Of a DNA stretch of 64,000 nt, positions 26,226 to 64,000 are shown piece by piece. The notes beneath the pieces are model-generated. The model did no database searches. It saw only the letters and a list, made by a program, of their open reading frames with translations, and was not told the DNA's origin. Source of the stretch: Lepraria neglecta (lineage: Eukaryota > Ascomycota > Lecanoromycetes > Lecanorales > Stereocaulaceae); NCBI GenBank assembly GCA_033220425.1, contig CM065647.1:4092001-4156000 (forward strand). The letters are read 5' to 3'. A program made the position numbers and the translations under genes. Position 1 is the stretch's first letter; each line of letters opens with the position of its first letter.

Positions 26226-28484
26226 TCATTGATCCCCCTTAGCGCGATTCATAGGTCCCCAATCCGGCCGTGGGTTAGGTTGATATCTAACCATACGCTT
26301 CCCTTGCGGCTCCTTACCTAGCTCTTCATCAAAGACGACTTTCAACTTGTTCGGATAGACTTCCGCACGTCCCTTTCCACCAAAATGTTGCCCATGCTTC
26401 TCACCGCCGTCGTGCAGACCCACGCCTCCATCAACATCAGCAGCCTCAGATACCATGTCTTCCCCGGTGCCTTCCTCTGCCTTCGATATTTGATAGAGCG
26501 TGGCTTCTACCTCTCTCCGCAGTCCTTCTAACCCCTCGAAACCCGGATTTTCTATCGTTTCCCTCAGCAGCCTTTGTGCCTCCATGATTTTCGTTCTCGA
26601 CCTGTCTTTCTGCATGATAACCCAACCTGCCGTGCCTTCGCTGATAGCATCCTCCTTGATCGGCGACTTTTGCCTGACCCACTCTCTCATTATCTCCCAG
26701 ACCACGGTCCAAGGTGCATCAGTGGCTATACTACCAGCTTTAGTATGCGAGCGCGTAACACGGTAGCCGAGGTTTAGCAGAGCGCCACGAAGGGCGGCAT
26801 CCGAGGGGGAGACGCAGTGGAGAATTCGGGAGAGAGCAGGTGGGAGGAAGAAGAACGGGTGGTGTGATCGAGCCGCAGCATTGGTCTTGGGAACGGGCCG
26901 GTCGAGCGTTGAAGCGGGGCGAGCGTCGGATGAATTGGGGTCATCGAGAGTTTCGTGGAGGGCAATGGAGAGCATGCCCTCGATTCGGGGAATAGTGCCG
27001 TAGATGTTCTTGTCGAGTGAAGGGAGCATGTCAAGGATGCGCTGGATGAAATGGGAATTGTGAAGGGGACCTCCCCACATAGGTCCCGCATGATGCGTCT
27101 TGAACCCGCAATGCTCGCAATGAGTGTTTGTGGAGGGGGCAAGGGCAGACGTGAAGTTGTAGAACGTGTCGCCATTCTTCGCCTTTTTCTCCTTCGTCCG
27201 CGCAAGGTATTGGGTCGACCATGCTCCACAACCTGCGTCACAATTGTATACTATCATTGTCTTGCTTACTAGGAATTTCACCTCGGCAGGCGATCGATGG
27301 ACGCGGACGAAAACCCTAGCGTAGAAGTCTATGGAGAGGGAGAGTAGGGGTTCGATGGCAATGCCGTAGCGTGCAGCGGATGTAGCAATGGCGTGGAGGA
27401 TAAGACGAAGGCCTCCTTCGTGAGCGTGGGCTCCCTTGAGAGGTAACCCTCCGTACTGGGAATATGTTTTCTCGAGATAGCCCAGAGATGCGAAGACTCC
27501 CGCATCAGTGCATGTGACACAGAGTAGGCCTCCATCGGCGATAGCTTGTACTGCTGCATCGAGGAATGGAGCAGCTGTTCCGTAAGGGTCGAGGTCGATC
27601 ACGTGGTATTGGCCTGGACCACCTGGGGCTTTAGAAGCTGCACGATGCATGTGCTCGACAGCACCACCAGTAGTTGGGCTGATCTTATCTGCGAGCTTGT
27701 TGTGCTCGACGTTGAACTTGATAGATGCTGTTGCTGAAGGGGAAAGATCATTTGCTGTAATCGAAGTAGCCATTGGGATTTCCTTGGCATAGCGAAGAGC
27801 TCGTAAGCCCGTGGCCGACAGGGCGTCGAGTATGCGAAAAGAAGGCTGGCCCGCTGATATCCTGCCATTCTTCGCCTCGTAATCGCCGAGTAGCGGTCTG
27901 TCATCGAATTCTTTTGTCCCTGATGCTCCGGCTTCTGTAGGGTCCAGAGCCTTTGAAGAGCCTTCCTGAGCCTGTGCTTCCGTATGTGTCTCGCCATTTT
28001 CAACTAGCCGAGCTTTCTGCGCGGGCCTCTCCTCATCTGCATTTGTCTTTGTTGCCGGCAATGCAGCATTGGCAACCGATGCCGCTAGCTGGCTCTTCTC
28101 ATTCTTGCCTGCCGCATCCTCTAAACCCTTTGTGCCCTCTGCTTGTACTCTCCTCCGCTTCTTGCCCCGTTGTTCGCCCTTGGCCAATTGCTCTAGCCTT
28201 CTTTGATGCCTTGCTTTCCATAGAGCAGCAAGGTCTTCACCAAATGCTTTGATTGCTAGCACGCTAATGTCGCGGTTGTATTGCTGTATGGGATTGTAGA
28301 AGACCGATTGTGATTTAGAGGAGGTTTTGCTGGAAGTGGTATCTTCTGGGCGTTGGAGGTTGAGGATCTCTGCAGTCCCTTCCCGGACAACCTTGTAGCG
28401 CTTGCCATTGTAATCGACTTCTGAGGGAGCTTGTGCTGGAGATTTAGAGGGGTCAATGCCATCTGAAGACGGTAAGGAGCCCAT
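26226..28484 (-). CDS. TRM1: tRNA (guanine26-N2)-dimethyltransferase
   Basis: Intronless, 752 aa from the ATG at 28484, or 795 aa from an in-frame ATG at 28613. It makes N2,N2-dimethylguanosine at position 26 of tRNAs. Visible signatures, in order: Asn-Pro-Ile-Gln-Gln-Tyr-Asn-Arg-Asp; the SAM site Asp-Ala-Leu-Ser-Ala-Thr-Gly-Leu-Arg-Ala-Leu-Arg; Asp-Leu-Asp-Pro-Tyr-Gly-Thr; and paired cysteines with Cys-Glu-His-Cys-Gly and Gly-Pro-Met-Trp-Gly-Gly-Pro-Leu-His. A Lys/Arg-rich insert (about 100-190) could carry a nuclear signal. The extra 43 residues of the longer form lack acidic residues and include Arg, Lys and His, as a mitochondrial presequence would. Yeast Trm1 is known to use alternative starts for mitochondria and nucleus, so both starts may be used. 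Confidence 0.93.
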   Translation of the reverse strand: MGSLPSSDGIDPSKSPAQAPSEVDYNGKRYKVVREGTAEILNLQRPEDTTSSKTSSKSQSVFYNPIQQYNRDISVLAIKAFGEDLAALWKARHQRRLEQLAKGEQRGKKRRRVQAEGTKGLEDAAGKNEKSQLAASVANAALPATKTNADEERPAQKARLVENGETHTEAQAQEGSSKALDPTEAGASGTKEFDDRPLLGDYEAKNGRISAGQPSFRILDALSATGLRALRYAKEIPMATSITANDLSPSATASIKFNVEHNKLADKISPTTGGAVEHMHRAASKAPGGPGQYHVIDLDPYGTAAPFLDAAVQAIADGGLLCVTCTDAGVFASLGYLEKTYSQYGGLPLKGAHAHEGGLRLILHAIATSAARYGIAIEPLLSLSIDFYARVFVRVHRSPAEVKFLVSKTMIVYNCDAGCGAWSTQYLARTKEKKAKNGDTFYNFTSALAPSTNTHCEHCGFKTHHAGPMWGGPLHNSHFIQRILDMLPSLDKNIYGTIPRIEGMLSIALHETLDDPNSSDARPASTLDRPVPKTNAAARSHHPFFFLPPALSRILHCVSPSDAALRGALLNLGYRVTRSHTKAGSIATDAPWTVVWEIMREWVRQKSPIKEDAISEGTAGWVIMQKDRSRTKIMEAQRLLRETIENPGFEGLEGLRREVEATLYQISKAEEGTGEDMVSEAADVDGGVGLHDGGEKHGQHFGGKGRAEVYPNKLKVVFDEELGKEPQGKRMVRYQPNPRPDWGPMNRAKGDQ

Positions 28485-28613
28485 ATTGATGTGTCTGAAG
28501 GTGCATATTGTTAGCTTAATGTAAGCGGTAGCAAGTAGATTTCGAGTATGGGTAGCTACTAGATTATGAGATCGAGTACATTTGCTAATATATGAAAATA
28601 TTCCTGGCATCAA

Positions 28614-28915
28614 AGATAATACTCGGCTGATATTGGGAATTCAAGCATTTGAAAGTGAGAGATTGCCAAGACTTTTTGATCCGAGTCAGTCTCTTACAAA
28701 GCATGGAGTCGAGTGTCTGCTCATAACTAAGCACACAGCACGGATGGTGGAAAGACATTGGCGTACTGAATGTAGAGAGGCTTGAATAATATAGCTTTGG
28801 CTGAGGATTTCTTATCGTAACTATCCAATTACGTGAGATTTCTCCGTTTCAACTGTTTTAAATATCTTTATTTGATGATTCAATACTTAGAATAACTGAG
28901 TTTTGTTCATTCGAA
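28614..28915. other. Intergenic before the tRNA-like sequence
   Basis: AT-rich; nothing recognised. Confidence 0.4.
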
Positions 28916-48976: not shown

Positions 48977-50321
48977 ATGGATAACGAATGGCAAGACGAG
49001 TTCATGAAGGACGTTGCTGCTAGCGAAGCTTTGACCTCCTACCCTTCAACCTACTTCGAAAAGGCCTTCCAACTCCCGTGACGGCGACCGCACCAAATTT
49101 TCCGACCACTTTCGCAGACCCATCTCCATCGCCACCTCCGAGCCCGATGGCGGACGAGTCGTGGCCGGCAAAGGGTAAGAGCAAGCGCCTTGCGGAGAAC
49201 CTAGGCGTCGACGACAGAGATGAAGCCAGCAAATCAAGAGCTTCCGGCCTCATCCGCGCCTCAGATTGTTCACCGCCACCGCCATCGCCACCGAAACGTC
49301 GCAGCGACAGTATAGGGACCACACCTCCCAGGAGAGACTTCAGTCCGGCCAAACGAGCGCTTCAACATCTACAAAGCTATTCTCCGCCACCCGAATCACT
49401 TTTTCCAGTTCGCGATTCGCCTCCCATCCGCCACTGTAGTCGACCTGTACGCCATCGACAAGGAATTCCACTACCGATTCAATAATTATAGTACCTCCAT
49501 CGTCTCCGACTATGCGTATTATCCTGCCCCGCACGCGGCTTTCATATTCTCTTGGATCATATTTCCGGAGCTGTGTATCAGCGACCCCTTGCTCAAGTCG
49601 ATGGATGGGCGATCTCTTCTGGCGCGCGATATTCCCAGCTTGCGCTGGACCAAGATGGTAATATACAGGGACAGAGTGACGCGAGGAATCTTAACTTGTC
49701 TCGGGCTGGAAGGCCATCGCTTCCATCGAGGGACTCACGTCACACTCATGAAATTCTGGCTGCTAATGGAGATGCAAATCACTGCCATGCGCGAAGCATT
49801 CCTCCGCGATGACAAGGTCTGGACGGACATGGATATCGTCTTCTTCCACCTGTTCCTCGTCAAGCTCGACATGCGCCTCCCGGATCCCATTCTTGGAAAC
49901 GGCATGTGCGAACTCTCGCACATGCTGTTGACGCAAAAGTCTCTCAGCTTGCTTTACAAAGTTGTCGCTATGGTGCAAGCGTTGCAAGATATCAATGAGA
50001 TCTATGAATGTGAACAGCCTGAGGAGCCAGAATCTATGGAATGAGGCTCCTAATATACATGATGGAGTGTCAAACAGTAGAAGACGCTAGAATGTTGACA
50101 AAGAAATGGTGATAAAGGAAAATGGCAAATAGCATACAACAAAAGTGCTCACTAAAAAGGTAGTCCTCGGCTATGGCGAAGCGACCGACATGCTAGTCCG
50201 CACTTACCTCAGCGAAGATCTCGACACAGACACTCACACATGGTTAGAGGATGAAATCGAGAATGGGGTTCCAGAGGAGGAATGGTGTATCCTGTTCGTA
50301 CGACCCGCCTCTTACAGGTGA
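48977..50321 (+). pseudogene. Frameshifted conserved hypothetical gene
   Basis: Pieces in three frames form one plausible protein. The first is Met-Asp-Asn-Glu-Trp to Phe-Gln-Leu-Pro (48977-49080). A Pro/Ser-rich linker follows (49078 to about 49330). The largest part, about 49340-50044, contains Arg-Phe-Asn-Ile-Tyr-Lys-Ala-Ile-Leu-Arg-His-Pro, Val-Val-Asp-Leu-Tyr-Ala-Ile-Asp-Lys-Glu-Phe-His, Trp-Thr-Lys-Met-Val and Leu-Leu-Thr-Gln-Lys-Ser-Leu. A further block after 50160 reads Val-Arg-Thr-Tyr-Leu-Ser-Glu-Asp-Leu-Asp-Thr. Slips at 49078 and about 49330 leave no room for introns. The family is not identified. It looks like a nuclear or cytosolic alpha-helical protein with a disordered N-terminal third. 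Confidence 0.5.
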
Positions 50322-51012: not shown

Positions 51013-54000
51013 ATGGCCACCCTCGACTCCCTAAAGCAGGCCCTTAAGCAGAAAGCCAAGGCAACGGCGTCGTCCCCGAAGCAGCCGTTGTCCGACACAC
51101 AGTACAGCGCCGGCTTCGATATCTTGGTGCGGGGCTCAGGATGGATGACGTACCAAGACTTCATTATCCCTCAACTATTTCAGCTGCTAGCCCCTCTCTT
51201 CAACTCGCGTATCCATATCTCGGCACTAGAAATCGGACCCGGCCCGAAGAGCCTACTTGGATATCTTCCCGGCCGTCTGAGACGGAAGGTTAGGAAGTAC
51301 ACTGCATTCGAGCCTAACGGCTTGTTTGCTACAAGGTTGGAAGAATGGCTTTGCTCTACCTCCGAGACGGAGTCCCCGCTGCTCTATCTGGAAAACCCGC
51401 CCGACATCCATCGAATTCCATTCGTTCTGCAGGACAACATAGGGAGTGGTACCAGTACCGGTACGAGTGATGACGACGAAAAATACGACATCATCCTATT
51501 CTGCCACAGCATGTACGGCATGAAGCCCAAACACAGGTTCATCGAACGGGCGCTGGAAATGCTTGTTGAGCGGCCACAAGGCGGAATGGTGGCGGTTTTC
51601 CATCGCGACGGGGCCCTGCACCTCGACGGCTTGGTGTGCCATCGAACGGCTTCTTTCCCTACTGGAGTCGTTAGCGTGGCAAATGACGATGAAGTACTGG
51701 ACTGTTTTGCTTCTTTCGTCGCGGGGTTTATCATGCAGGATGTGGACGTGGACAAGGCTATCCGAGTCGATTGGCGTAAGGTGTGCCGTGCCTTGGGCCG
51801 TCGCGAGGAAGCCCACCCAGACCATCTCTTGTTCAGCTCGCCCAACGTCATGGCGGCCTTTACCCAACATGCGACCACGTTGCCAGAGCTGACGGCGCAG
51901 GTGCCATTGGTGAAGGGGAACAAGACGATCAAAAACCGGGAGGCTCGCCTCCACCGCCCCGCCTCGATTATTAGACCGACAGAGGTCCGACACGTCCAGC
52001 AGTGCGTTCGATGGGCTCTGAAGCACGGGGTTGGCCTGACCGTCGTCGGCGGGGGTCACAGCGGCCACTGTCTCTGGCCCAACGTTGTCTCGGTCGACAT
52101 GGGCGCCTTTGACCAAGTACACATTCTCACGGCGGGGGAGGATGGAGGAGATTCTGGTTCCGATTCCGGTTCCTTGGTCGTCGCCGAGGCCGGCTGCAAG
52201 ACGGGGGATATCGTCCGCAAGACCATGGCGGCGGGCGTGACAGTACCCCTGGGGGCTCGCCCAAGCGTAGGTGCGGGGCTGTGGCTACAAGGCGGCATTG
52301 GGCACCTGGCTAGGTTGCACGGGCTCGCGTGCGACGCCATTGTCGGTGCCGTTATGGTCAGCGTCGACTCTAGCCAGGTCCTCTGCGTCGGCTGTGTACC
52401 AAGCCAACACCGGCCGGCCGGTGCCGTTCGCCCGGAAAACGAATCCGATCTGTTATGGGCGATGAAAGGCGCCGGGACCAACTTTGGTATCGTGGTCAGC
52501 GTGACTTTCAAGTCTTACGCGGCTCCGACCTTCTTGACTCGAAACTGGGTTGTCCCGCTGAGTGACAACCTCGAGGCGCGGCTCAGGCTCAGCGACTTTG
52601 ATAAACTCGTCGCTAGGAAGCTCCACTGGAACTGTTCTGCAGACGCGTATCTGTACTGGGACGCCGGCCAGCTGCATCTTGGCGTGACCATGTTCGAATC
52701 TTCCACGACTAGGCTCACCTTTGCAACACCCACGCCCACGCCCGCAGGTGCAATTTGGGGGGCTGGAAGACGATTTCAAGGCCGTAGACGGCGTCAGTTT
52801 GTTCGAGACCGAGATGTACGTGTCTGGGATGCACGGCGGGCACGGCGGCGGCAAGACCTCCTCGTTCAAGCGATGTTTATTCTTAAAACGCATCGGAGAA
52901 GCGAACGTCGCCGACCGCTTGGTGGCGGCCGTTGAGACTCGTCCCTCGCCACTCTGCTATCTCCATCTGCTGCAAGGTGGCGGAGCGGTCGGCGAAGTTG
53001 CGGCCGATGCCACTGCTTGTGGCTGTCGAGACTGGGACTTTGCCTGCGTGATAACCGGTGTCTGGCCCCGCGATCAAGATGGCACCGAAGCCGCACAATC
53101 TGCCGTGCGGTGGGTTTACGACGTCGCCGGGGACTTGTTGTCCTTGAGTAGCGGAGCTTACGGCGCCGACCTTGGGCCGGACCCTAGAGACGCCGCGCTG
53201 GCGGCCAAGGCTTTTGGACCGAACCGGCCGCGCCTAGCCCGTCTCAAACACAGCTTGGACCCGCGTAATGTGCTGGCTTACGCCTGCCCGCTCCCGAAAG
53301 CACCGGTGGAACAGAAGCTTATCATTCTTATCACGGGCGAAAGCTGCGCCGGCAAGGACTATTGTGCCGACGTCTGGGTCTCTGTGTTCATCAGATGTAT
53401 CCACAAAAGCCTCACGGCGCGTGCAGTCAGCATTAGCGATGCGATCAAGCGAGAATACGCGGCGGCTACCGGTGCCGACCTGAGCCGCCTGCTTTGGGAC
53501 CGTGCCTACAAGGAGCAACACCGGCCAGCGTTGACGACATTTTTCCAGGGACAGGCGCGGCAACGACCTCGGCTGCCAGAGGAGCATTTTCTGAATGTGG
53601 TGTACGGCGCCGTAGATGTGGACGTGCTGCTAATCACCGGGATGAGAGACGAGGCACCGGTCGCAGCCTTGTCGCATTTGGTGCTAGACAGCAGGCTACT
53701 CGAGGTTCACGTCCAAGCTAGTGAACAGACGCGGCGGATTCGTCGAGGGTGCCACGGCGGTGACGGCGATGGTGACCACAACAAGGACAGCAACAATAGC
53801 GGGTCGAATTTGACGGCCTTGGACTACCGCCCCAGTCTCATCTTCGACAATGACACGACCGGAAACGAGGCGGCAAAAAGGTTTGCCGAACATTACCTGC
53901 TTCCCTTCGTCCACGAGGACCTACAGCGACTGGCCAATATGGTGCGCCAGGTAGCCGACTTCCCACGCCCGGGCATTGAGTTCCGCCACGTGCTCGGCAT

Positions 54001-54499
54001 CTCCCAGCAGCCGGGTGGGCTGGCCCTGTGCACGTCTCTGCTGCAAACCCACTTCACCGGTGACTGGGCCAAAGTCAATGCGGTGGCGTGTTGCGAGGTC
54101 GGCGGCTTTGTCTATGCGTCGGCGTTGGCCTCGCGGGTCGATTTGCCATTAGTGCTGATTCGCGAAGCTGGCAAGCTCCCCCCACCCACCGTTTCTGTCA
54201 TCAAGCCCCCGTCGCATATCTCGTCTTTGGCATTCAATAATTCGAAAGAGAAGCGGATCGAGATGGAGCGAGATGTGGTCCCGAGGGGCGCGTCAGTGGT
54301 GGTGGTAGACGATGTGCTTTCCACGGGGGAGACACTTTGTGCGGTGCTACAGCTATTAGATGAAGCTAGCATCGGCGCCGAGGATGTCAGCATCATGGTC
54401 GTGGCCGAGTTCCCGGTTCACCATGGCCGGGAACTATTGCGCCAACGTGGGTTTGGCAGAATCAATATTCAAAGCCTTTTGGTCTTTGACGGTGCTTAG
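51013..54499 (+). CDS. Four-module protein: methyltransferase-like, FAD oxidase, PMVK-like kinase, APRT-like
   Basis: Start at the ATG at 51013. The first frame runs to about 52735, the second from about 52721 to 54499. A 64-bp phase-0 intron 52684-52747 (weak GTGACC donor, good CCCGCAG acceptor) joins them into 1140 aa. The alternative is one extra base near 52747, giving about 1161 aa. Module 1 (about 35-260) is a class I methyltransferase-like fold with Leu-Glu-Ile-Gly-Pro-Gly-Pro. Module 2 (about 315-750) is a PCMH FAD-binding oxidase with Val-Val-Gly-Gly-Gly-His-Ser-Gly and a C-terminal Leu-Asp-Pro-Arg-Asn-Val. Module 3 (about 760-900) is a P-loop kinase, Ile-Thr-Gly-Glu-Ser-Cys-Ala-Gly-Lys-Asp, then Ile-Lys-Arg-Glu-Tyr and Tyr-Lys-Glu-Gln-His-Arg, like animal-type phosphomevalonate kinase. 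Module 4 (about 955-1140) is a type I phosphoribosyltransferase of adenine type, Val-Val-Asp-Asp-Val-Leu-Ser-Thr-Gly-Glu-Thr. No signal peptide; probably cytosolic. The product is unknown. Confidence 0.8.
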
Positions 54500-55998
54500 G
54501 AAAGGAAGGAAAGGATCTCAGAATCTTGGATTTGTGATAGGGATACCTTGTGATATGTGTGATTCGAACAATTTGGAACTTCTGCCCTATCGTTTATCTT
54601 AGTGGGTGATCAATCTCGCTTTCACGACCAGGGTCGAGGAGTAGGCCGCCAAGGGCCGGCCCAAGAGGGGAAAGACTGCGCACAGCCACAAACATGCTGG
54701 GCTAACCTGATTGACATAAATTACACCGTATTGATTATGTGAGACGTGCGGGGTCGTTTTGCACTAGCCGGGATTGGTAATTGCTTTGATCGGAGATACT
54801 AACCCGCGTGGCGACCTTGCATAAATTTGCGCGCCACAGCAGACACGAGGCTGATGATGACTTCCAGCACTGTAGTCAGGCTCTGAGGCTCGGATAAGAT
54901 CCTTTTATGAGTATCGTACGTGGTAAGAGCTTGATAGTAGTGCTGTAGTGGAGGAACACTATTATGCTATAAAAGGAGGCTCTTTAAAAATTAGGCGTGA
55001 AGGCGATGATACGAATGTAATTTTTAGGTGGGAGAAGTTTTAGATGTTCGGGGTAGCCACAGTACACAACTTATCTAGAACTATAGCAAATACTAACGTG
55101 TGCACAGATTTTGAGTTGCTTGAAGTCAAGGTACCTATGAGTTTTCTCGGCACGGTGGGTTTCTCGCCACCTAGGGACGGATAGTACGAAGTTATTCAGA
55201 ATATTCCCATCTCAGAGAAAGCGGATTGGGGAGCCAGAAATGGAGGGGGGGTGCCAGAAGTGGAGCGGGGGATACATTGTTTTCGGGAAGTCACTTTCTA
55301 GTGATGTAGTTGTCTTAGTAGAGCCTGCACTGGAGTTAGTGAGCCTAGTGCTTCTGACCGTGCCTTAGCCTTGATGTTGTAGACGTCGGAGGGCTTAAGC
55401 ATGGGGTTTTCTTCGTCCAGACCGAGACGTAGGGATGAGAGGACCTTAGACGGCTTGGATCCTGTTCGTGATTGGTTGATAACAGTATCTTCAACGTCTG
55501 TTGTCCTCGCAATCTTCCGTAGAGATGTATGGGACCCCTCTATAGTAGGACCGTGATTATGTTACCCACGAATAATCTCCTAAGTCTATAGATCTGACTC
55601 GGTGGGACGTGCAGCGATAACCAGGAAAGGACAGTCCATAAGCCTACTATCAGTTATTCGTTTTCCCTTGCTTTTACTGTTCTTCTCTAGCTTGCCCCCG
55701 CGGTTACATCGTATCCAAGCACGGCGGTCCAGTTTAGTCTTCTTGAATTTTTTGGTGCGGGCTTTGAGGACAGCGTAGCCCTACGGGCCCGTATACTGTT
55801 GCATCCGTAGTACAAGGCTATCGAGGAGAGCTGCTTGCCAGCCTTCTGGCGGTAGTTGTAGGGGTATAGTAGTGGTGGCGGTGGTGGCGGTGGGGGAGGA
55901 GTATTTTGCAAATAGTAGTGTTTTTGCTTATGAGATCTTTTGAAATTTTTACTCATGCGTCGATTGGTTCGGATAATACGGAAGCTAGTACTCCCACA
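54500..55998. other. Gene-poor stretch between the four-module gene and repetitive DNA
   Basis: No supported gene. A GGT/GGC-rich triplet tract at about 55870-55898 creates a poly-Pro ORF on the minus strand, which is not called. Confidence 0.45.
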
Positions 55999-56919
55999 AG
56001 GTGTACGCCTAGTTGGATAGGGTGTACGCGGAGTGAGTTAGGGTGTACGCGCAGTGGAAGCCTATAATTAAAGCAATTATAAAAGATAAGCGCTATAATT
56101 ATAGTACGATCAAAGTAATTATAGAATACTTAGTAGGATTTCCTATTACTATATATACGGAGTACTACTTACTAATTAGAGTATTGTACTTAACTTTATA
56201 CTTTCTATTCAATTGTTTACTATATACGATAGATCTCTTAAGCTAGATACTAAATATATACTATCTTGTTATATACTAGACCGCTTAGTATTACTTGAAG
56301 CCTGCTTCAATCTTTTGTATATCTAGTACCTCTATCTCTATTGAGAACAATCTATATACGATATCGATACGTATAGTTCGTAACATCTTATTAGAGACCC
56401 TAAATCCTAGATCGATTATATAAATACGAATTTTATTCGCGACTTCATTTACTTAGTTCTATATTATTTTCTATAATTCTAATAGCGTTAGATAGTATAT
56501 AGTCTAGTCTATAGAGAGTAAGCTCGAGATTTATATACGACCTATATTTATAAAGTAATTAGTTATAAAAAAGTCTGTAAAGATATAAACTCTAAATTTT
56601 AGAGTTAGGATTAATATACTTCCTATACCGAGTCTTGGTAGAGGCGTATAGATAGAATTATAGTTTAGCGTATAACTTTTATATAAAAAGACCAATTTAA
56701 TTTTTTTTGACGGCGTTAGAGTATACTTAGCTAGTTTCAAAACTTGTAAAATTATCTTGATATTATATAACGTATATAGCGCAAGGCATTACTGCGAAGA
56801 AGTTACGGTATATATTTAACTTTTGATATTCTAGGGTCCGGGGGCGCCAAGCTTAATGCTTAGTATTTACTACTAACTGTAACGGGGTCTAGGCATGCGT
56901 GACTGAGCAACTGGTGGAT
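55999..56919. repeat. AT-rich, RIP-like degraded repetitive DNA
   Basis: It starts with GTGTACGC at 56001, 56022 and 56043 (21-bp spacing). Base composition then turns strongly AT-rich, with many TA dinucleotides, and every frame is full of stops. The minus strand retains short blocks that look like eroded coding sequence. Probably an older transposon remnant next to the LTR element. Confidence 0.55.
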
Positions 56920-57352
56920 TGTTAGAACCAGAAGGTTCTGACAGGACTGTCGCGAAGGACAAATGACTTCGGACAGGACAGGCAGGTAAAGCGATGATCG
57001 CAGTGATCGTAGTGCGAGCAATACTATCAAGAATAATGATCGCAATGATCGCAGTGCGAGCAATACTATCGAGAGTGCTTGGCAGGATTTCCTATATCTA
57101 CATATACGGGGCTTTGCCCGTTATTTGGAACAGCGTGTTCAACTTGGTAAACCATTACTTGGTTAATCTTCCTGGTATCCCTTACACTATACTTTACTAG
57201 TTATCAACATAGAACGCATTGATTACCTACAACCACAAAGACTGCCATTCTACCTAAGTAACTCCTCTCCCATAGAAGTATAAGACATCTACACCCCTAT
57301 ACGTTCGGTTATCGCACCGTTAGGTAAACGACTGAACGTAAGGGTCGTAACA
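56920..57352 (+). repeat. 5' LTR
   Basis: Begins TGTTAGAACC and ends GTAACA. It matches 63071-63502 with scattered, mostly transition differences. It contains an internal duplication of about 38 bp (ATGATCGCAATGATCGCAGT core). Confidence 0.9.
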
Positions 57353-57370
57353 CTTTGAACACCCTAAGGG

Positions 57371-60300
57371 ATGAGTTCTTCAACAACTTCAGGCAGAAAC
57401 CCTACCCTAAGCACCTTAACGGTTACTAGCTAGAGACGCCAAACTATAGACGAAGGATCTAGAAAAAGGATCAAGGTTATAGTACCAGACCTATACTACG
57501 GAGACAGGGACAAGCTTGAGCCATAGCTTATACAAGTATAACTGTACCTTTTATTCCAGGGGGACTTACTCCCAGTAACCAGATATACTACCTTCGCTAT
57601 ATCATACCTACGAGGACAGGCCTAAAAGTGGGTCGAACCTTTCCTAAAGAAGTATATGGAAGACGACGACGAAGACAGCGACGTTAAATCTTGGATAGAG
57701 AGTATACCAAAGTTCATAGTCGAAATCCGCCGTATGTTCGGACCTTCCAATAAGGCAAACGCAGCAACACGCATCATCCAGCACATAAAGCAGAAGAAGT
57801 CAGCGTCAGAGTTCTCAACTCAGTTTCAAACGTACGCGACTAAAACAGGCTAGGATGATGATGCGCTGATAACGATATATCGTCAGGGCCTTAAAGATAA
57901 TGTTAAAGACGAGCTTATAAGATTCGGAGGAGTAATCGACACTCTAGACAGACTTATAGAGAATACGATCGAAATCGATGATAAACTATTTAAACGATCC
58001 ATAGAGAAACAGTATGACGGAGGAGTCAGCGGAACCCGATATAAGGGATTCTTTTCAAAAACAAGGAATTACCGACAAGATTACAGAGAACGTAATACTT
58101 ACCGTAGTACAGTGCTAATAGAGATTAACTTTATTTAGATAGGAAAGAAGAAAGGAAACTTTAAAGGGAAAAAGCAGTACGGGGGAAAGAAAGCAATTAC
58201 TTGCTATAGCTATAGCAAGCTAGGCTATATAGCTAGAGACTGCAGGTCGAAGAATATGGTATACCGACCGCAGATTAACGCAATAGAAGGAGGACCTCTA
58301 GATAACAAGGAAAACTCCGAAGAAACATGGCCACTCTACAATATAGATGAATTAGATTAGGATTCGGAAGACGATACCTTCGAATCAGAATTCAATAAAG
58401 AAGTATAGAGATATTACTATAGGGATAGTAACAAATCTTAATAATATAAGACGGATCAGGAATAGCGGAAAACCAGTCCGGAGAGACCAGCATCAACACC
58501 CGAACCTGGATCTACCACATCCCAAGCAGAAGAGAAATTGCCAGAAATTAACGAACCTTAATCGGACAAAGACGAATACAAACTCTTCGACGAAATCGAA
58601 AGCAAAGTACGAGGTATATTAAATGAGCAATTATCTATAAAACCCAAATGGGACGAACCTATACGAGACTATCGATACGATAGGGAACATTAGTAATATG
58701 GCGAGATTCCATATACTAAATACGTATTACCCGACTATTCAGTATATAGAGAAGAAAGGGGCCGTCTAGCGAAAGAGTGTACGGTACCTTTACTTAAGAA
58801 AGCTTACTATAGAGAAATATAGTAGTATAAGTATAAGGAAGACAGGTACCAGTAGCATCTTGCGAGCAAAAGGAAGTATTACCACTTCCTATACTTTATA
58901 GAAAAGTAGGAAAAGGAAAGAAACAACTCACTTAAAGTCTTCAAGAGAGGAGCTTATAACCAAGTACTATAGTATAGCTACCTACACGATAAGTATATTC
59001 CGTATCAGGGTATAAAGGAAGTATATAGCTTCCTACTATTACAGGGAAAAGAATGATCTCTTATGCTACGGGGAAGCATAAGGAGATTAATACGTTATTC
59101 CCCAAACAACAATTATATTCCGCCCAGTATCACACTCACATTATTATACCAGTGAATATCGACGGATAGCGGACTATAGCGATAATAGACAGCGGAGCTA
59201 CAGGAAATTTCATCTCAAGGAACTTGGTAGACTCAAGTAGCCTACCAACCCGGAAGAAGAAATTGTCTTACGAGTTACGCCTGGCTAACAGGTTAGTATT
59301 CTCAACAGGAAAAGTAGAGGAGGAGATACACTCCCTACTAGTAATAATTCAGTAATACTATAAGGAGATTACATTCGACATAGTTGGGATAGCCACTTAC
59401 TATATCATTTTAGGAATGCCTTAGTTAAATAAACACAACCTAGAAATCAACTAGAAGACGAAAGTACTTAAATTCGGACGATCTAGAAACGTCACCAGCA
59501 TTAGACCTATTAGTCAATAGTAGATAATAATAGATAAGAGAAAGAACCGAAGACTAGTCGAAGTATATATTACTTTATTCTTAAATAATAAGAGCGACTT
59601 CCAAGAGAGAAGGCTCGACTCCTTAGTTACTAGTAAAGGTTAGTAGGATACTAAAGAGAGAGCTATTAAAGGAAAAGACGAACCTTCTACGATCCCTCGG
59701 GAATATAAATAGTAGGCATACCTATTCAAGGAAGAGATAAGCGTAAAAGCGTTGCCTAAGCACCAGCCATAGGATTATAAGATCGAACTCGAACCTGGCA
59801 AGGCGCCGATATTTAGACCTATCTATACATTATTAGAAAAGGAACTTACTATACTTCGCGGGTATATCGAGGAGAACCTTAAAAAGGGATTTATTCGGGA
59901 ATCCAAATTACCAGCAGGTTATCCAATCCTCTTCGCGCCGAAGAAGGACAGAAGCTTACGGCTATACGTCAACTATTAAAAGTTGAACGACATTATAATC
60001 AAAAACAGGTATCCTTTACCAAACATCAGCGAGCTATAGGATCGGCTCAGCAAGGCAAAGATATTTACGAAACTAGACCTTAGAGGCGTATATAACCTAA
60101 TTCGGATAAAAGAAGGCGAAGAATAGAAAACTGCCTTCCGAACCAGATATGGCTATTATAAGTATCTAGTAATACCGTTTAGACTCACCAACGTACTAGT
60201 AACCTGCCAAGTACTTATTAATAACGTTATACAAGTATACTTAGATCGAATAGCAATAGCGTACCTCGACGATATCTTGATTTACTCTGAGAAAAAGGAA

Positions 60301-62530
60301 GAATATATCAAGTATATATAGGACGTTATCGAATGCCTATTATAAGCTAGACTACTCCTTAAACCGGAAAAGTGCGAATTTCACAGGGACTCTATTAAGT
60401 TCCTAGGATTTGTGGTCAGCACGAAAGGTATTAGTATAAGCCTAGAAAAGATCAAAGCTATAGCGGAATAGCCTATACCACAGGACGTTAAAGCAGTATA
60501 AAGTTTCTTGGGATTTACTAACTTTAACAGGAAGTTTATCAAGGGCTACTTAAAGAAAGTACTTCTACTTACAGATATCACTAAGAAAGATATCGGATTT
60601 ATATAGGGACAAGAATAATAAAAGTCGTTTGACACGTTAAAAAAAGCATATACAGATCCACTAGTACTCTGTACCTTTTAAGCTAACGAACCGGCTCGTA
60701 TCGAAATAGATACTTCGGATCTTGTAATAGGAGTATACCTTTATTAAATGAAAGACTAAAAGTAGTATCCAGTTGCCTACTTTTCACGAAAAATGTTAGT
60801 AGTAGAACAAAACTACGATATACACGACAAAGAACTACTTACTATAGTATGTATACTTTAGAATTAGAGAGTGTACGCAGAAAGCTACTCGGACCTAACT
60901 ATCTTTACGGATTATAAGAATCTTCTTAACTTTACAATAACAAAGGAGTTAAATAGACAACAAGTCAGATAGTTAGAACTACTCAGACAATATAAGTTCA
61001 AAATAACCTATACCCCAGGGAAAGATAATGGTCGAGTAGATGCGCTTAGTAGGCGATCAGACCATATAGAGGAGAAGAATATTACAGAACGACCAATCCT
61101 AAAACGAGAAGCCGATGGATCATTAGTACCATATCAGGCATTGGCAATGACCCTTCATATATCAGGACCTGATATAACTAACAGGATCGTAAAGGCCTAT
61201 AATAACGATGTATTCGCAATAAAGCTACGACAGGATTAACTAGATTCAGTGTTACTTAGATATCAGGAGAGAACTTACTTACCTGGTATATACGTTAAAG
61301 AAGTGATCAGGGATCACTATAACGACCTATTGCAAGGTTACCCTGGAGTTTCTAAGACTATGGAACTCCTAGGACGAGGATACGCAGCGCCGAAACTTCG
61401 GACTCGCGTTAAACAATATATTAAAGAATGTATCCAGTATTAGCAGAACAAGTCTATACAATACGCCAAGTACGGGCAAATTCAGTTTGCGCCTGTACCA
61501 GAGTCACTATAGGATGATGTCATAATAGACTTTATAGTCAAACTACTACCTTCGAAGGATCCGGCTACACAGGATACCTTCAATTCAATTATGGTCATTA
61601 TGGATAAACTAACGAAGTATACAATCATAATACCTTTCAAAGAAATATATAAGGTAGACTAGCTAGCCTTTATACTGCTTGACAAGCTGATAAGAGATTA
61701 CAGTATACCTAAGTCGATAATATCCGATAGAGACAAGTTGTTTACTTCTAACTACTAGAGGACGCTTATAGCAGCGATTAGAACCAAACTTCGGATGTTA
61801 ATAGTATACCATCTATAGACTAATAGATAAACAGAACGTGCGAATCAAATAATGGAAGCATACTTAAGGCACTATATGAACCTAAAACAAGATAACTGGG
61901 TTTTACTGCTTCCAATAGTATAACTAGCGTATAACGATAAGAGGTCAGATATAATAGGTCTAATACCATTCTTTGCCAATTACGGAAAGAATATAAACAT
62001 ATTTCTGCAAGCTAGGGACAGACCTAACACAGAAAAAGCCTTAGTTAAGGTAGAGGAGCTAAAGAATTTGTATAAGGATATATAAAGGACGATTAAGAGC
62101 TCAAACAATAAGTTAAAGGAGTAGGTTAACAGTAAAAGAAAGAATATTCCTCAGCTTAAAGAGGGGGATAAAGTATACCTCTTAATAAAAAATATAAAGA
62201 CGACGAGACCAAGTAAGAAACTAGATTATATTAAGGTCGGACCATTCTTAATTAAGAAGGTAAAGGGGGCCGTTAACTATAAACTCGAGCTTCTACCTAA
62301 CGCTAAGGTATATCCGGTATTCCATATCTCACTTCTAGAGCCAGCAGACTCTAATATACCACTCCAAGAAACATTTCATTATAACGTTAAGGAAGAAACA
62401 GAGTATAAGGTCGAGAGGATCCTAGATAGAAGGAATCAGTTCTATCTAGTTAAATAGAAAGGGTATGACGAAACGGAAAGTACCTAGGAACCTCTTAGGA
62501 ACCTTGCGGGGAACTATAGGGAACGTCTAC
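57371..62530 (+). pseudogene. Gag-Pol remnant of the LTR retrotransposon
   Basis: Gag starts at the ATG at 57371 and includes a recognisable capsid-like part (57650-57850). A zinc knuckle at 58202-58243 reads Cys-x2-Tyr-x4-Tyr-x4-Cys, where Cys and His have become Tyr by G-to-A or C-to-T change. Protease: Ile-Asp-Ser-Gly-Ala-Thr at 59183-59203. Reverse transcriptase: about 59800-60400 with Tyr-Leu-Asp-Asp-Ile-Leu near 60262. RNase H: about 60700-61050, with Glu-Ile-Asp-Thr-Ser-Asp. Integrase: about 61250-62100. Chromodomain: about 62400-62515, Val-Glu-Arg-Ile-Leu-Asp to Trp-Glu-Pro-Leu, with a TAG for a Trp inside. Stops occur throughout, so no product is expected. Confidence 0.88.
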
Positions 62531-62623
62531 GAGAGTTCTATCAGAGAGAAGAGAAGACTAGTCGAGGCTCTCGGGGATTTCTATCCCGTCAGGGAGATCG
62601 AACTACTCGGACGAGACGTTGAA

Positions 62624-63223
62624 CATTAAGTCGTTAGGAGACTTGGGAGCGACGCGTTAGTCCTCCTCCAATTCCCTTATGTTCTACAACTCTCGGTCCA
62701 CCATATTCTTCTTCTCCTTCTCGACTAAATTCAATTGCGCCTAGAGGCGTACCAGTTTCGCGAGCGCATCAGTAACTTCTTCACGTAACTCGTTACGCCG
62801 TTTTTCGACACGACGTATTTCAAGGGGCGACACCACAAGGTCGCACTTCCGACCACCAGAAACGCAGCTCGAACATCTATCGGAATCAGCACCCATAAGG
62901 CACTGCTTGCCATTAGCAACACATCGAGAACAGGGCCGCATAACGAAGTCAGAAAGTTCACTAGCCAGCTCCTTTAATCGGATGGCTGGGTTGGACGATC
63001 TCTTAGTACAGATAGGTAGCATGAAGGATGGATGGTTTCTCGGGACGAGAAATCTGGAGGGGGGAGCTAGTATTAGAACCAGAGGGTTCTGACAGGACTG
63101 TCGCGAAGGACGAATGACTTCGGACAGGACAGGCAGGTAAAGCGATAATCGCAATGATCGCAGTACGAGCAATGCTATCAGGAATGATGATCGCAATGGT
63201 CGCAGTGCGAGCAATACTATCAA
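62624..63223 (-). pseudogene. Antisense ORF of the retrotransposon with Cys6-like cluster and coiled coil
   Basis: Between the end of pol and the 3' LTR, reading against the element and starting inside the LTR. The open part (63223-62741) contains Cys-x2-Cys-x6-Cys-x8-Cys-x2-Cys-x6-Cys followed by a charged helix. After TAG codons that look like mutated Gln, the same frame continues as a Lys/Glu-rich coiled coil to about 62624. It could be an accessory gene of the element driven antisense from the LTR. The Cys cluster resembles the zinc-cluster fold of fungal regulators. Function unknown. Confidence 0.5.
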
Positions 63224-63502
63224 GAGTGCTTGGCAGGATTTCTTATGTCTACATATACGGGGCCTTGCCCACTGTTTGGAACAGCGTGTTCAACTTGGCA
63301 AACCATTCTTGGTTAATCTTCCTGGTACTCCTTGCACTATACTTTACTAGTTATCAACATAGAACGCATTGACTACCTTCAACCACAAAGACTGCCATTC
63401 TACCTGAGTGACTCCTCTCCCACAGAAGCATAAGACATCTACACCCCCATACGTTCGGTTATCGCACCGTTAGGTAAACGATCGGACGTGAGGGTCGTAA
63501 CA
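63071..63502 (+). repeat. 3' LTR
   Basis: Begins TATTAGAACC (TG changed to TA relative to the 5' copy) and ends GTAACA. Co-linear with 56920-57352. Confidence 0.9.
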
Positions 63503-64000
63503 TCCAGGAAGCCTATAGCGTAAGCGACTTTCTTCTTTATTTCCTCTATTTAATATACTTAGCCCGCTAGTATCTCGCCTTCGGGGTCTTCTTACTTAAA
63601 GCCCTTAGTATCGAACTAACGCTCGTATTCGTATAGAAAGTCGTCCAGTTCCTCTAGGGTATTACCCTTATATAGCTTTGGGTCTTTTATCTTCAAGCTT
63701 AGAATCGATCTCTTTGCCGTCCCTTACGTCTTAAAACTTAACAAGACCTGTCGACAGTATATCTAATAGGCCTAAAACGCCGTATACTCCTCGGTATTTA
63801 CCTGTATTATACTGGTACCGGCTTCTTCGCCCGCGTCGGCTCCTCTAAGCGTACTGTCGCTAGGATCCGATCTAAGTTATTATCTTGCTCCCGCTGAGGA
63901 AGCTATTACGACTTATAGTTAACTGTTCGATTCGATATTCGATTCGAATTTTAACTAACTGGCTCGACGCCGGCGTTAATCGGTAGGTAGGTAGCGGTGA
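63503..64000 (-). pseudogene. Gag-like fragment of a second retroelement
   Basis: On the minus strand, right next to the 3' LTR, one frame with several TAA/TAG codons reads Leu-Lys-Ile-Lys-Asp-Pro-Lys-Leu-Tyr-Lys-Gly, Glu-Glu-Leu-Asp-Asp-Phe-Leu and Ala-Tyr-Ala-Ile-Gly-Phe-Leu. This resembles the start of the capsid region in fungal Gag proteins. It differs from the Gag at 57.4 kb and runs the opposite way, so it belongs to another element, probably interrupted by the LTR retrotransposon. It extends beyond the window. Confidence 0.45.

Follow-up and report, generated by a model that had tools for sequence, protein, structure and literature searches.

The window analysed here is a 64,000-nucleotide stretch of contig C2 from the genome of the lecanoromycete Lepraria neglecta (42.0 Mb in 11 contigs), and our subject is a gene with a footprint of 51013-54499 that is made up of two open frames. 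Judged by its sequence, this locus is the L. neglecta copy of a family of four-module proteins of approximately 1160 amino acids, found in many Pezizomycotina, in which a methyltransferase-like module is followed by a PCMH/berberine-type flavin adenine dinucleotide (FAD) oxidase, a phosphomevalonate kinase (PMVK)-type kinase and a phosphoribosyltransferase (PRT) of adenine phosphoribosyltransferase (APRT) fold. With a probability of roughly 0.4, the family would constitute a compact pathway in two halves that gives a modified purine-like nucleotide, its gene having spread horizontally among fungal classes. An earlier note on this DNA had described the same modules, order and outer coordinates, with the modules joined in phase by one candidate intron. 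The coordinates are borne out, as are the modules in that order, three of them by Pfam and the methyltransferase by its motif I and a low-confidence structural model; the in-phase intron did not survive comparison with relatives.

Four modules in one polypeptide

Across both frames, Pfam recognises FAD_binding_4 (6.5e-13), P-mevalo_kinase (8.7e-22) and Pribosyltran (1.4e-18). The public L. neglecta protein OEA41_003802 (P0121) agrees with our query at 100% identity over the first 330 query residues and with the second frame of the window at every one of its C-terminal 583 residues. Compared with the MATLDS start used in the fetched full-length relatives, e.g., P0122, it begins 22 residues further upstream. 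A search with the query, which admitted candidates of 0.55-1.75 times its length at E ≤ 0.001 and favours long proteins, found 939 proteins, of which 120 were listed; a search with the second frame found 405, again with 120 listed. All three Pfam-recognised modules occur in one protein in 112 of the 120 listed relatives of the query. The domain order that the earlier note had proposed to seek in other fungi is thus present there, and two of the outcomes that it had counted as contrary were not observed: the modules are not always separate genes, and key motifs are conserved across rows, the basic residues of the PRT excepted. Conservation counts below refer to an alignment (A1) of 135 proteins, namely the 112 three-domain rows (P0121 included) and 23 picked from the second-frame list.

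The eight listed rows without all three domains are P0088, P0139, P0155, P0170, P0205, P0212, P0217 and P0219. Near the FAD/kinase boundary, the methyltransferase-FAD proteins P0205 and P0217 stop; at it, five kinase-PRT proteins start, namely P0098 and P0109 (both Elaphomyces), P0103, P0105 and P0119. Some split forms at this boundary are consistent with a protein of two halves. Of the other short forms, P0170 stops before the boundary, part of the kinase is present in P0155 and P0212, and a start upstream of the boundary is seen in P0102 and P0111. Short forms may reflect gene fission, broken genes or cuts in gene models. The kinase-PRT protein P0102 has a different N-terminal extension, perhaps from another gene context, and P0216 (Rutstroemia) carries a GTP cyclohydrolase I domain (PF01227) N-terminal to the four modules, either as a real fusion or as a merged model of neighbouring genes.

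The methyltransferase-like module (51013-51942, plus strand, as is every feature of the gene) bears the marks of a class I S-adenosylmethionine (SAM) methyltransferase: motif I as LEIGPGPKS, an acidic residue after strand 2 in AFEPN, and FCHSMYGM. Among rows with a residue at the position, motif I retains its L (114/114), E (114/115), first G (116/116) and second G (114/114), and the Glu of AFEPN is invariant (113/113). A low-confidence predicted model suggests a Rossmann fold, with human histamine N-methyltransferase as its top PDB match. Several results count against this part of the proposed pathway. The model is poor (pLDDT 58), and PF13489 stays below the Pfam cut-off of 27 bits both in the window (16.6 bits, 0.0068) and in two of five scanned relatives (17.9 and 19.6 bits). 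The other three relatives, one of them full length, gave no PF13489 match, and sequence searching found no solved relative of the module. The class I SAM fold claimed by the earlier note is thus backed by motif I and the low-confidence Rossmann model, and not by a Pfam match above threshold.

The FAD-binding part of the oxidase, PF01565 at 51958-52368, scores 49 bits against a cut-off of 26.4, as the earlier note's PCMH flavin oxidase would require, and its best PDB match by sequence is 6-hydroxy-D-nicotine oxidase (5.6e-17). Within the conserved GGGHSGHC (52048-52071), the His of GGH, which we take to bind the flavin, is kept in 134/135 rows, in keeping with a PCMH/berberine oxidase of the flavinylated type. 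The Cys of GTCPGVG in chitooligosaccharide oxidase presumably makes a second flavin link; Arg occupies that position in 133/134 rows, and from these residues the oxidase is predicted to be monocovalent. The substrate-side and C-terminal part (52765-53290) includes MHGGHGGGKTSSFKRC, of which KRC is present in 135/135 rows. The berberine-like tail (PF08031, 53204-53281, 0.0015) reaches 18.9 of the 20.6 bits required in the window, and among five scanned relatives only P0118 exceeds the cut-off (21.7 bits).

The kinase (53330-53677) matches PF04275 at 77.7 bits against a cut-off of 33.8, which together with its P-loop residues upholds the P-loop kinase of the earlier note. Its motifs are TGESCAGKD, IKREYA, YKEQHR and TGMRD. 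The P-loop G and K are invariant (135/135) and its D nearly so (134/135), as are the Lys of IKREYA (135/135), the Y, K and E of YKE-x-x-R (134/135, 134/135 and 135/135) and the Arg of TGMRD (135/135). No solved relative was found with the single kinase sequence; an 11-row profile matched the solved PMVKs 7xnd (2.7e-5) and 3ch4 (0.0023). The conserved motifs, the Pfam score and this profile match would all be expected of a real phosphomevalonate-type kinase in a protein that makes an isoprenoid- or cytokinin-like compound. Such a role is nonetheless very unlikely: three relatives score 22.8, 32.1 and 29 bits with the animal PMVK equivalog TIGR01223, far under its cut-off of 188.15, and Asp is found in 131/135 rows where 7xnd carries the second Arg of a paired Arg motif. 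Furthermore, Pfam scans of the window and five relatives show no isoprenoid-handling domain, and the genome holds five GHMP-kinase matches elsewhere, GHMP being the normal type of fungal phosphomevalonate kinase.

The last module (53906-54496, with PF00156 at 53999-54406 and the stop codon at 54497-54499) has the APRT fold, and matches APRTs among the structures listed in a comparison. The kinase-PRT didomain was modelled at pLDDT 86, and its listed structural matches are all phosphoribosyltransferases. The phosphoribosyl pyrophosphate (PRPP) loop VVDDVLSTGETL of type I PRTs is conserved (D 134/135, D 135/135, G 135/135, T 135/135). The adenine-type PRT of the earlier note therefore stands as to fold and loop, and not as to equivalog scores or basic residues. 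In three relatives NF002636 reaches at best 103.9 of 125 bits and TIGR01090 at most 89.2 of 185.85, so by the curated models these three are, at the level of sequence, neither APRT nor animal PMVK equivalogs. Where human APRT has SRGF and RKRGKLPG, the window has VGGF and REAGKLPP, changes that are kept family-wide. The replacement of R, K and R by G, E and A weighs on the proposed nucleotide product and makes PRT catalysis uncertain, since those basic residues presumably serve pyrophosphate binding. This altered site is the main doubt on the pathway, and it allows the PRT to be a sensor of PRPP or nucleotides, as in the purine repressor PurR, which would control a three-enzyme tailoring protein whose product is no nucleotide; we regard this as quite unlikely. 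A defence protein was also considered and set aside: the PRT part of two relatives matches ShosT only weakly (17.3 and 16.8 bits), which was attributed to a general resemblance among PRTs.

The genome has a single copy of the gene, and whatever else matches it there is 22-40% identical. There are seven other Pribosyltran matches, one of which, on C6 and with 29% identity to this PRT, is presumed to be the ordinary APRT; no second PF04275 match was found in the genome. Given that presumed APRT and the five GHMP-kinase matches, neither housekeeping APRT nor housekeeping PMVK activity is likely to come from this gene.

A change of frame within the oxidase

The supposed intron is a 64-nucleotide GT-AG stretch at 52684-52747 that can be removed in phase and is used as an intron in the public annotation of P0121. 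In-phase splicing alone is weak evidence, however, because 208 GT-AG or GC-AG pairs in the searched region keep the frame open. Between fixed anchors of the alignment, P0121 has 17 residues and P0057 has 26, whereas the other 133 of the 135 rows have at least 30, most commonly 38 (64 rows). The first frame of the window encodes these residues as well, reading VTMFESSTTRLTFATPTPTPAGAIWG over the junction stretch where the alignment majority is VTMFESSTTRLTFATPTPTPVGAIWG. Alignments in frame 1 extend to at least 52746 in 116/134 relatives and to at least 52758 in 112/134. The intron was accordingly rejected; since relatives keep these residues and frame-1 alignments run past 52746, the stretch appears to be coding, with a frame change just after it.

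The window copy thus carries a frame change at approximately 52748-52764, about where frame-1 similarity stops and frame-2 similarity restarts, and an assembly error and a genuine frameshift are both possible. Intact relatives exist; in Lepraria, the assembled copy has a broken frame, which counts against the pathway proposed here. The break within the oxidase, the single copy and the position between a solo long terminal repeat (LTR) and diverged repeats marked by repeat-induced point mutation (RIP) would fit a decaying pseudogene of a formerly useful gene. Where 90% or more of 111 full-length rows agree, and with 45 columns past the junction excluded, Lepraria departs at only 7 of 723 columns, 3 of 353 before the break and 4 of 370 after it, against medians of 11 and 11. 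There is no excess of departures after the break and therefore no sign of decay. In addition, the gene is without RIP sign (TA/AT 0.69), and a single frame change can come from assembly error, so that a pseudogene is somewhat unlikely.

Descent of the gene and its surroundings

The fusion gene has probably spread horizontally among fungal classes, to judge from sequence comparisons. Trees were built by a "quick" method, and each approximately unbiased (AU) test sets one tree against one other. The 31 full-length rows that bear a name come from six classes; their pairwise identity is approximately 73-93% and class signal is weak, with a median of 83.3% within classes (75.0-93.3, 86 pairs) and 81.0% between them (72.8-90.9, 379 pairs). 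In this set the Lecanoromycetes (10 rows, p 1.3e-38) and the Leotiomycetes (6 rows, p 1.4e-7) were rejected as clades. The tree was repeated on 19 rows, after removal of eight rows labelled as metagenome-assembled genomes (MAGs) and four other lichen rows, whose bins are possibly contaminated, and the Leotiomycetes were rejected again (p 2.0e-8). A tree of 70 kinase-PRT rows requires 21 class changes, compared with 7 for clean classes, and 34 of its 67 inner branches are open.

A control gene is offered by TRM1, a tRNA dimethyltransferase encoded in the window by one 804-amino acid open frame (26229-28640, minus strand). Its identity is 54% to Umbilicaria vellea, 53% to Psora crenata, 59% to Puttea exsequens and 63% to Lecanoromycetidae sp. 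Uapishka_2, while for the fusion the corresponding values are 92.4%, 90.7%, 88.8% and, over the second-frame part, 87%; this is one control gene, and the two measures differ (BLAST local identity versus alignment pairs). The TRM1 list names 18 organisms, and at least four of them recur among the listed fusion relatives, most rows of which are without an organism name; this suggests a patchy distribution.

These comparisons must be weighed against an exceptionally slow gene, inherited vertically with losses and with weak phylogenetic signal, which would involve no transfer at all. Inner branches are short and many forks are open. The Dothideomycetes (6 rows, p 0.12) and Sordariomycetes (5 rows, p 0.33) were not rejected as clades among the 31 rows, nor among the 19 (0.48 and 0.20, respectively). 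Class labels also cluster above chance: the 31-row tree has 11 changes, where the minimum is 6 and the shuffled mean 18.7 (as low in 0/200 shuffles), and the 21 changes of the 70-row tree compare with a shuffled mean of 41.5. Moreover, the two nearest rows to Lepraria are themselves Lecanoromycetes. All of this tells against horizontal spread. Purely vertical descent is nevertheless unlikely, because TRM1 reaches only 53-63% identity to the same four lichens, against 87-92% for the fusion, and because the Lecanoromycetes and, in both row sets, the Leotiomycetes were rejected as clades.

In search of a bacterial or viral source, genome_contigs (8 pattern matches) and viral_contigs (6) were scanned once each, and neither scan confirmed a relative. 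One protein from a Sphingomonadales MAG (P0041) shows 84% identity across 82% of the second-frame query; given the outcome of the genome_contigs scan, it perhaps derives from a fungal contaminant contig. Carriage as Starship cargo was rejected, there being no captain nearby: the DUF3435 matches on C2 lie only at 3.228 Mb, approximately 0.9 Mb from the gene (4.143 Mb). Six-frame searching of the Lepraria genome gave 36 matches to this captain-type domain, many with internal stops.

The gene is richer in guanine and cytosine (GC) than its surroundings, with 0.54-0.64 inside (500-base windows), 0.47-0.56 at 49.0-51.0 kb, 0.46-0.48 at 54.5-56.0 kb and 0.28-0.35 at 56.0-57.0 kb. It lies between the solo LTR (49963-50141) and diverged repeats from approximately 54.7 kb onward. 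The LTR (TGTCGC...ACAACA, 179 bp) is bounded on both sides by the 5-bp target duplication AAAGT, overlaps the end of an open frame at 49316-50044, and recurs with 91-100% identity at no fewer than 42 other places in the genome (40 of 52 candidates scored). Two pairs of it stand approximately 895 bp apart (C1:5622771/5623665 and C3:5309752/5310647), which suggests a short non-autonomous element resembling a terminal-repeat retrotransposon in miniature (TRIM). On the other side, two blocks of diverged dispersed repeats at 54700-56000 have 25 further genome matches, and an AT-rich stretch at 56000-64000, whose dinucleotides are shifted in the manner of RIP (TA/AT 1.32-1.44), looks, by eye, like a decayed gypsy-type retrotransposon. 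No convincing repeats frame the gene as one element within 48.5-57 kb, and no RNA genes were found in the window. In the 20 open frames scanned, no biosynthetic cluster is evident near the fusion gene; other matches among them, within 1470-45329, are to DUF7908, a ferritin-like protein, two alcohol dehydrogenases, F-box, IBR and, weakly, HSP70.

Proposed pathway and known systems

In the compact pathway that we favour, the N-terminal half, methyltransferase and predicted monocovalent oxidase, would act on a small heterocyclic or amine precursor by methylation and oxidation. In the C-terminal half, the APRT fold would use PRPP to attach or handle a ribose-5-phosphate group, and the kinase would use ATP to phosphorylate a phosphomonoester, the kind of substrate on which known PMVKs act; the outcome would be a modified purine-like nucleotide. 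Fusion in more than 100 listed relatives and the conservation of motifs argue that the modules act jointly. We infer that all four are active in one common pathway, and likewise the kind of product and the transfers. The single-polypeptide pathway of the earlier note thus stands in the identity, order and fusion of its modules, and its modified-nucleotide product is kept as a conditional proposal. A bolder and rather improbable version holds that one horizontally travelling gene is the whole of a short pathway, in which a base is methylated, oxidised, joined to ribose-5-phosphate and phosphorylated, giving an undescribed modified nucleotide across Pezizomycotina in one acquisition; if so, that nucleotide might be a signal, an antimicrobial or a cofactor-like compound. 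An active protein would mean a one-gene pathway able to move between fungal classes and an unusual fungal home for a PMVK-type kinase.

Searches of the open-access PMC literature aimed at the four-module fusion, its names or its transfer found no description of it, subscription papers lying outside that scope. Public databases hold these proteins, often, where named, as "hypothetical protein" or "adenine phosphoribosyltransferase", names that hide a conserved four-enzyme fusion.

Each module has known counterparts. For the first, this is the class I human histamine N-methyltransferase to which its low-confidence model is closest. With 6-hydroxy-D-nicotine oxidase and the berberine-bridge-type FAD oxidases, the second shares the PF01565 segment and the GGH histidine; it differs in having Arg in place of the chitooligosaccharide oxidase Cys, in its conserved MHGGHGGGKTSSFKRC segment and in its fusion to other modules. 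The third shares with animal-type PMVKs a PF04275 score above cut-off, the P-loop GKD, the Lys, the YKE-x-x-R motif and one of the pattern's Arg residues, but is set apart by its equivalog scores, the Asp replacing the second Arg and its fungal host. From APRT, the fourth is distinguished by equivalog scores below cut-off (three relatives), the lack of the human basic residues and fusion to three modules, and a separate APRT-like match is present in the same Lepraria genome. A functional parallel is Cns3 of Cordyceps militaris, encoded among the cordycepin/pentostatin genes, which joins a nucleoside kinase and a phosphoribosyltransferase of HisG type; whether Cns3 takes part in making cordycepin in heterologous hosts is described as not confirmed (PMC8719641). 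Both are fungal kinase-phosphoribosyltransferase fusions, and Cns3 is tied to purine nucleosides (PMC8719641). As far as that description extends, the two are set apart by their PRTs, of HisG type in Cns3 and APRT type in the present family, and by the two domains described for Cns3 as against the four modules found here.

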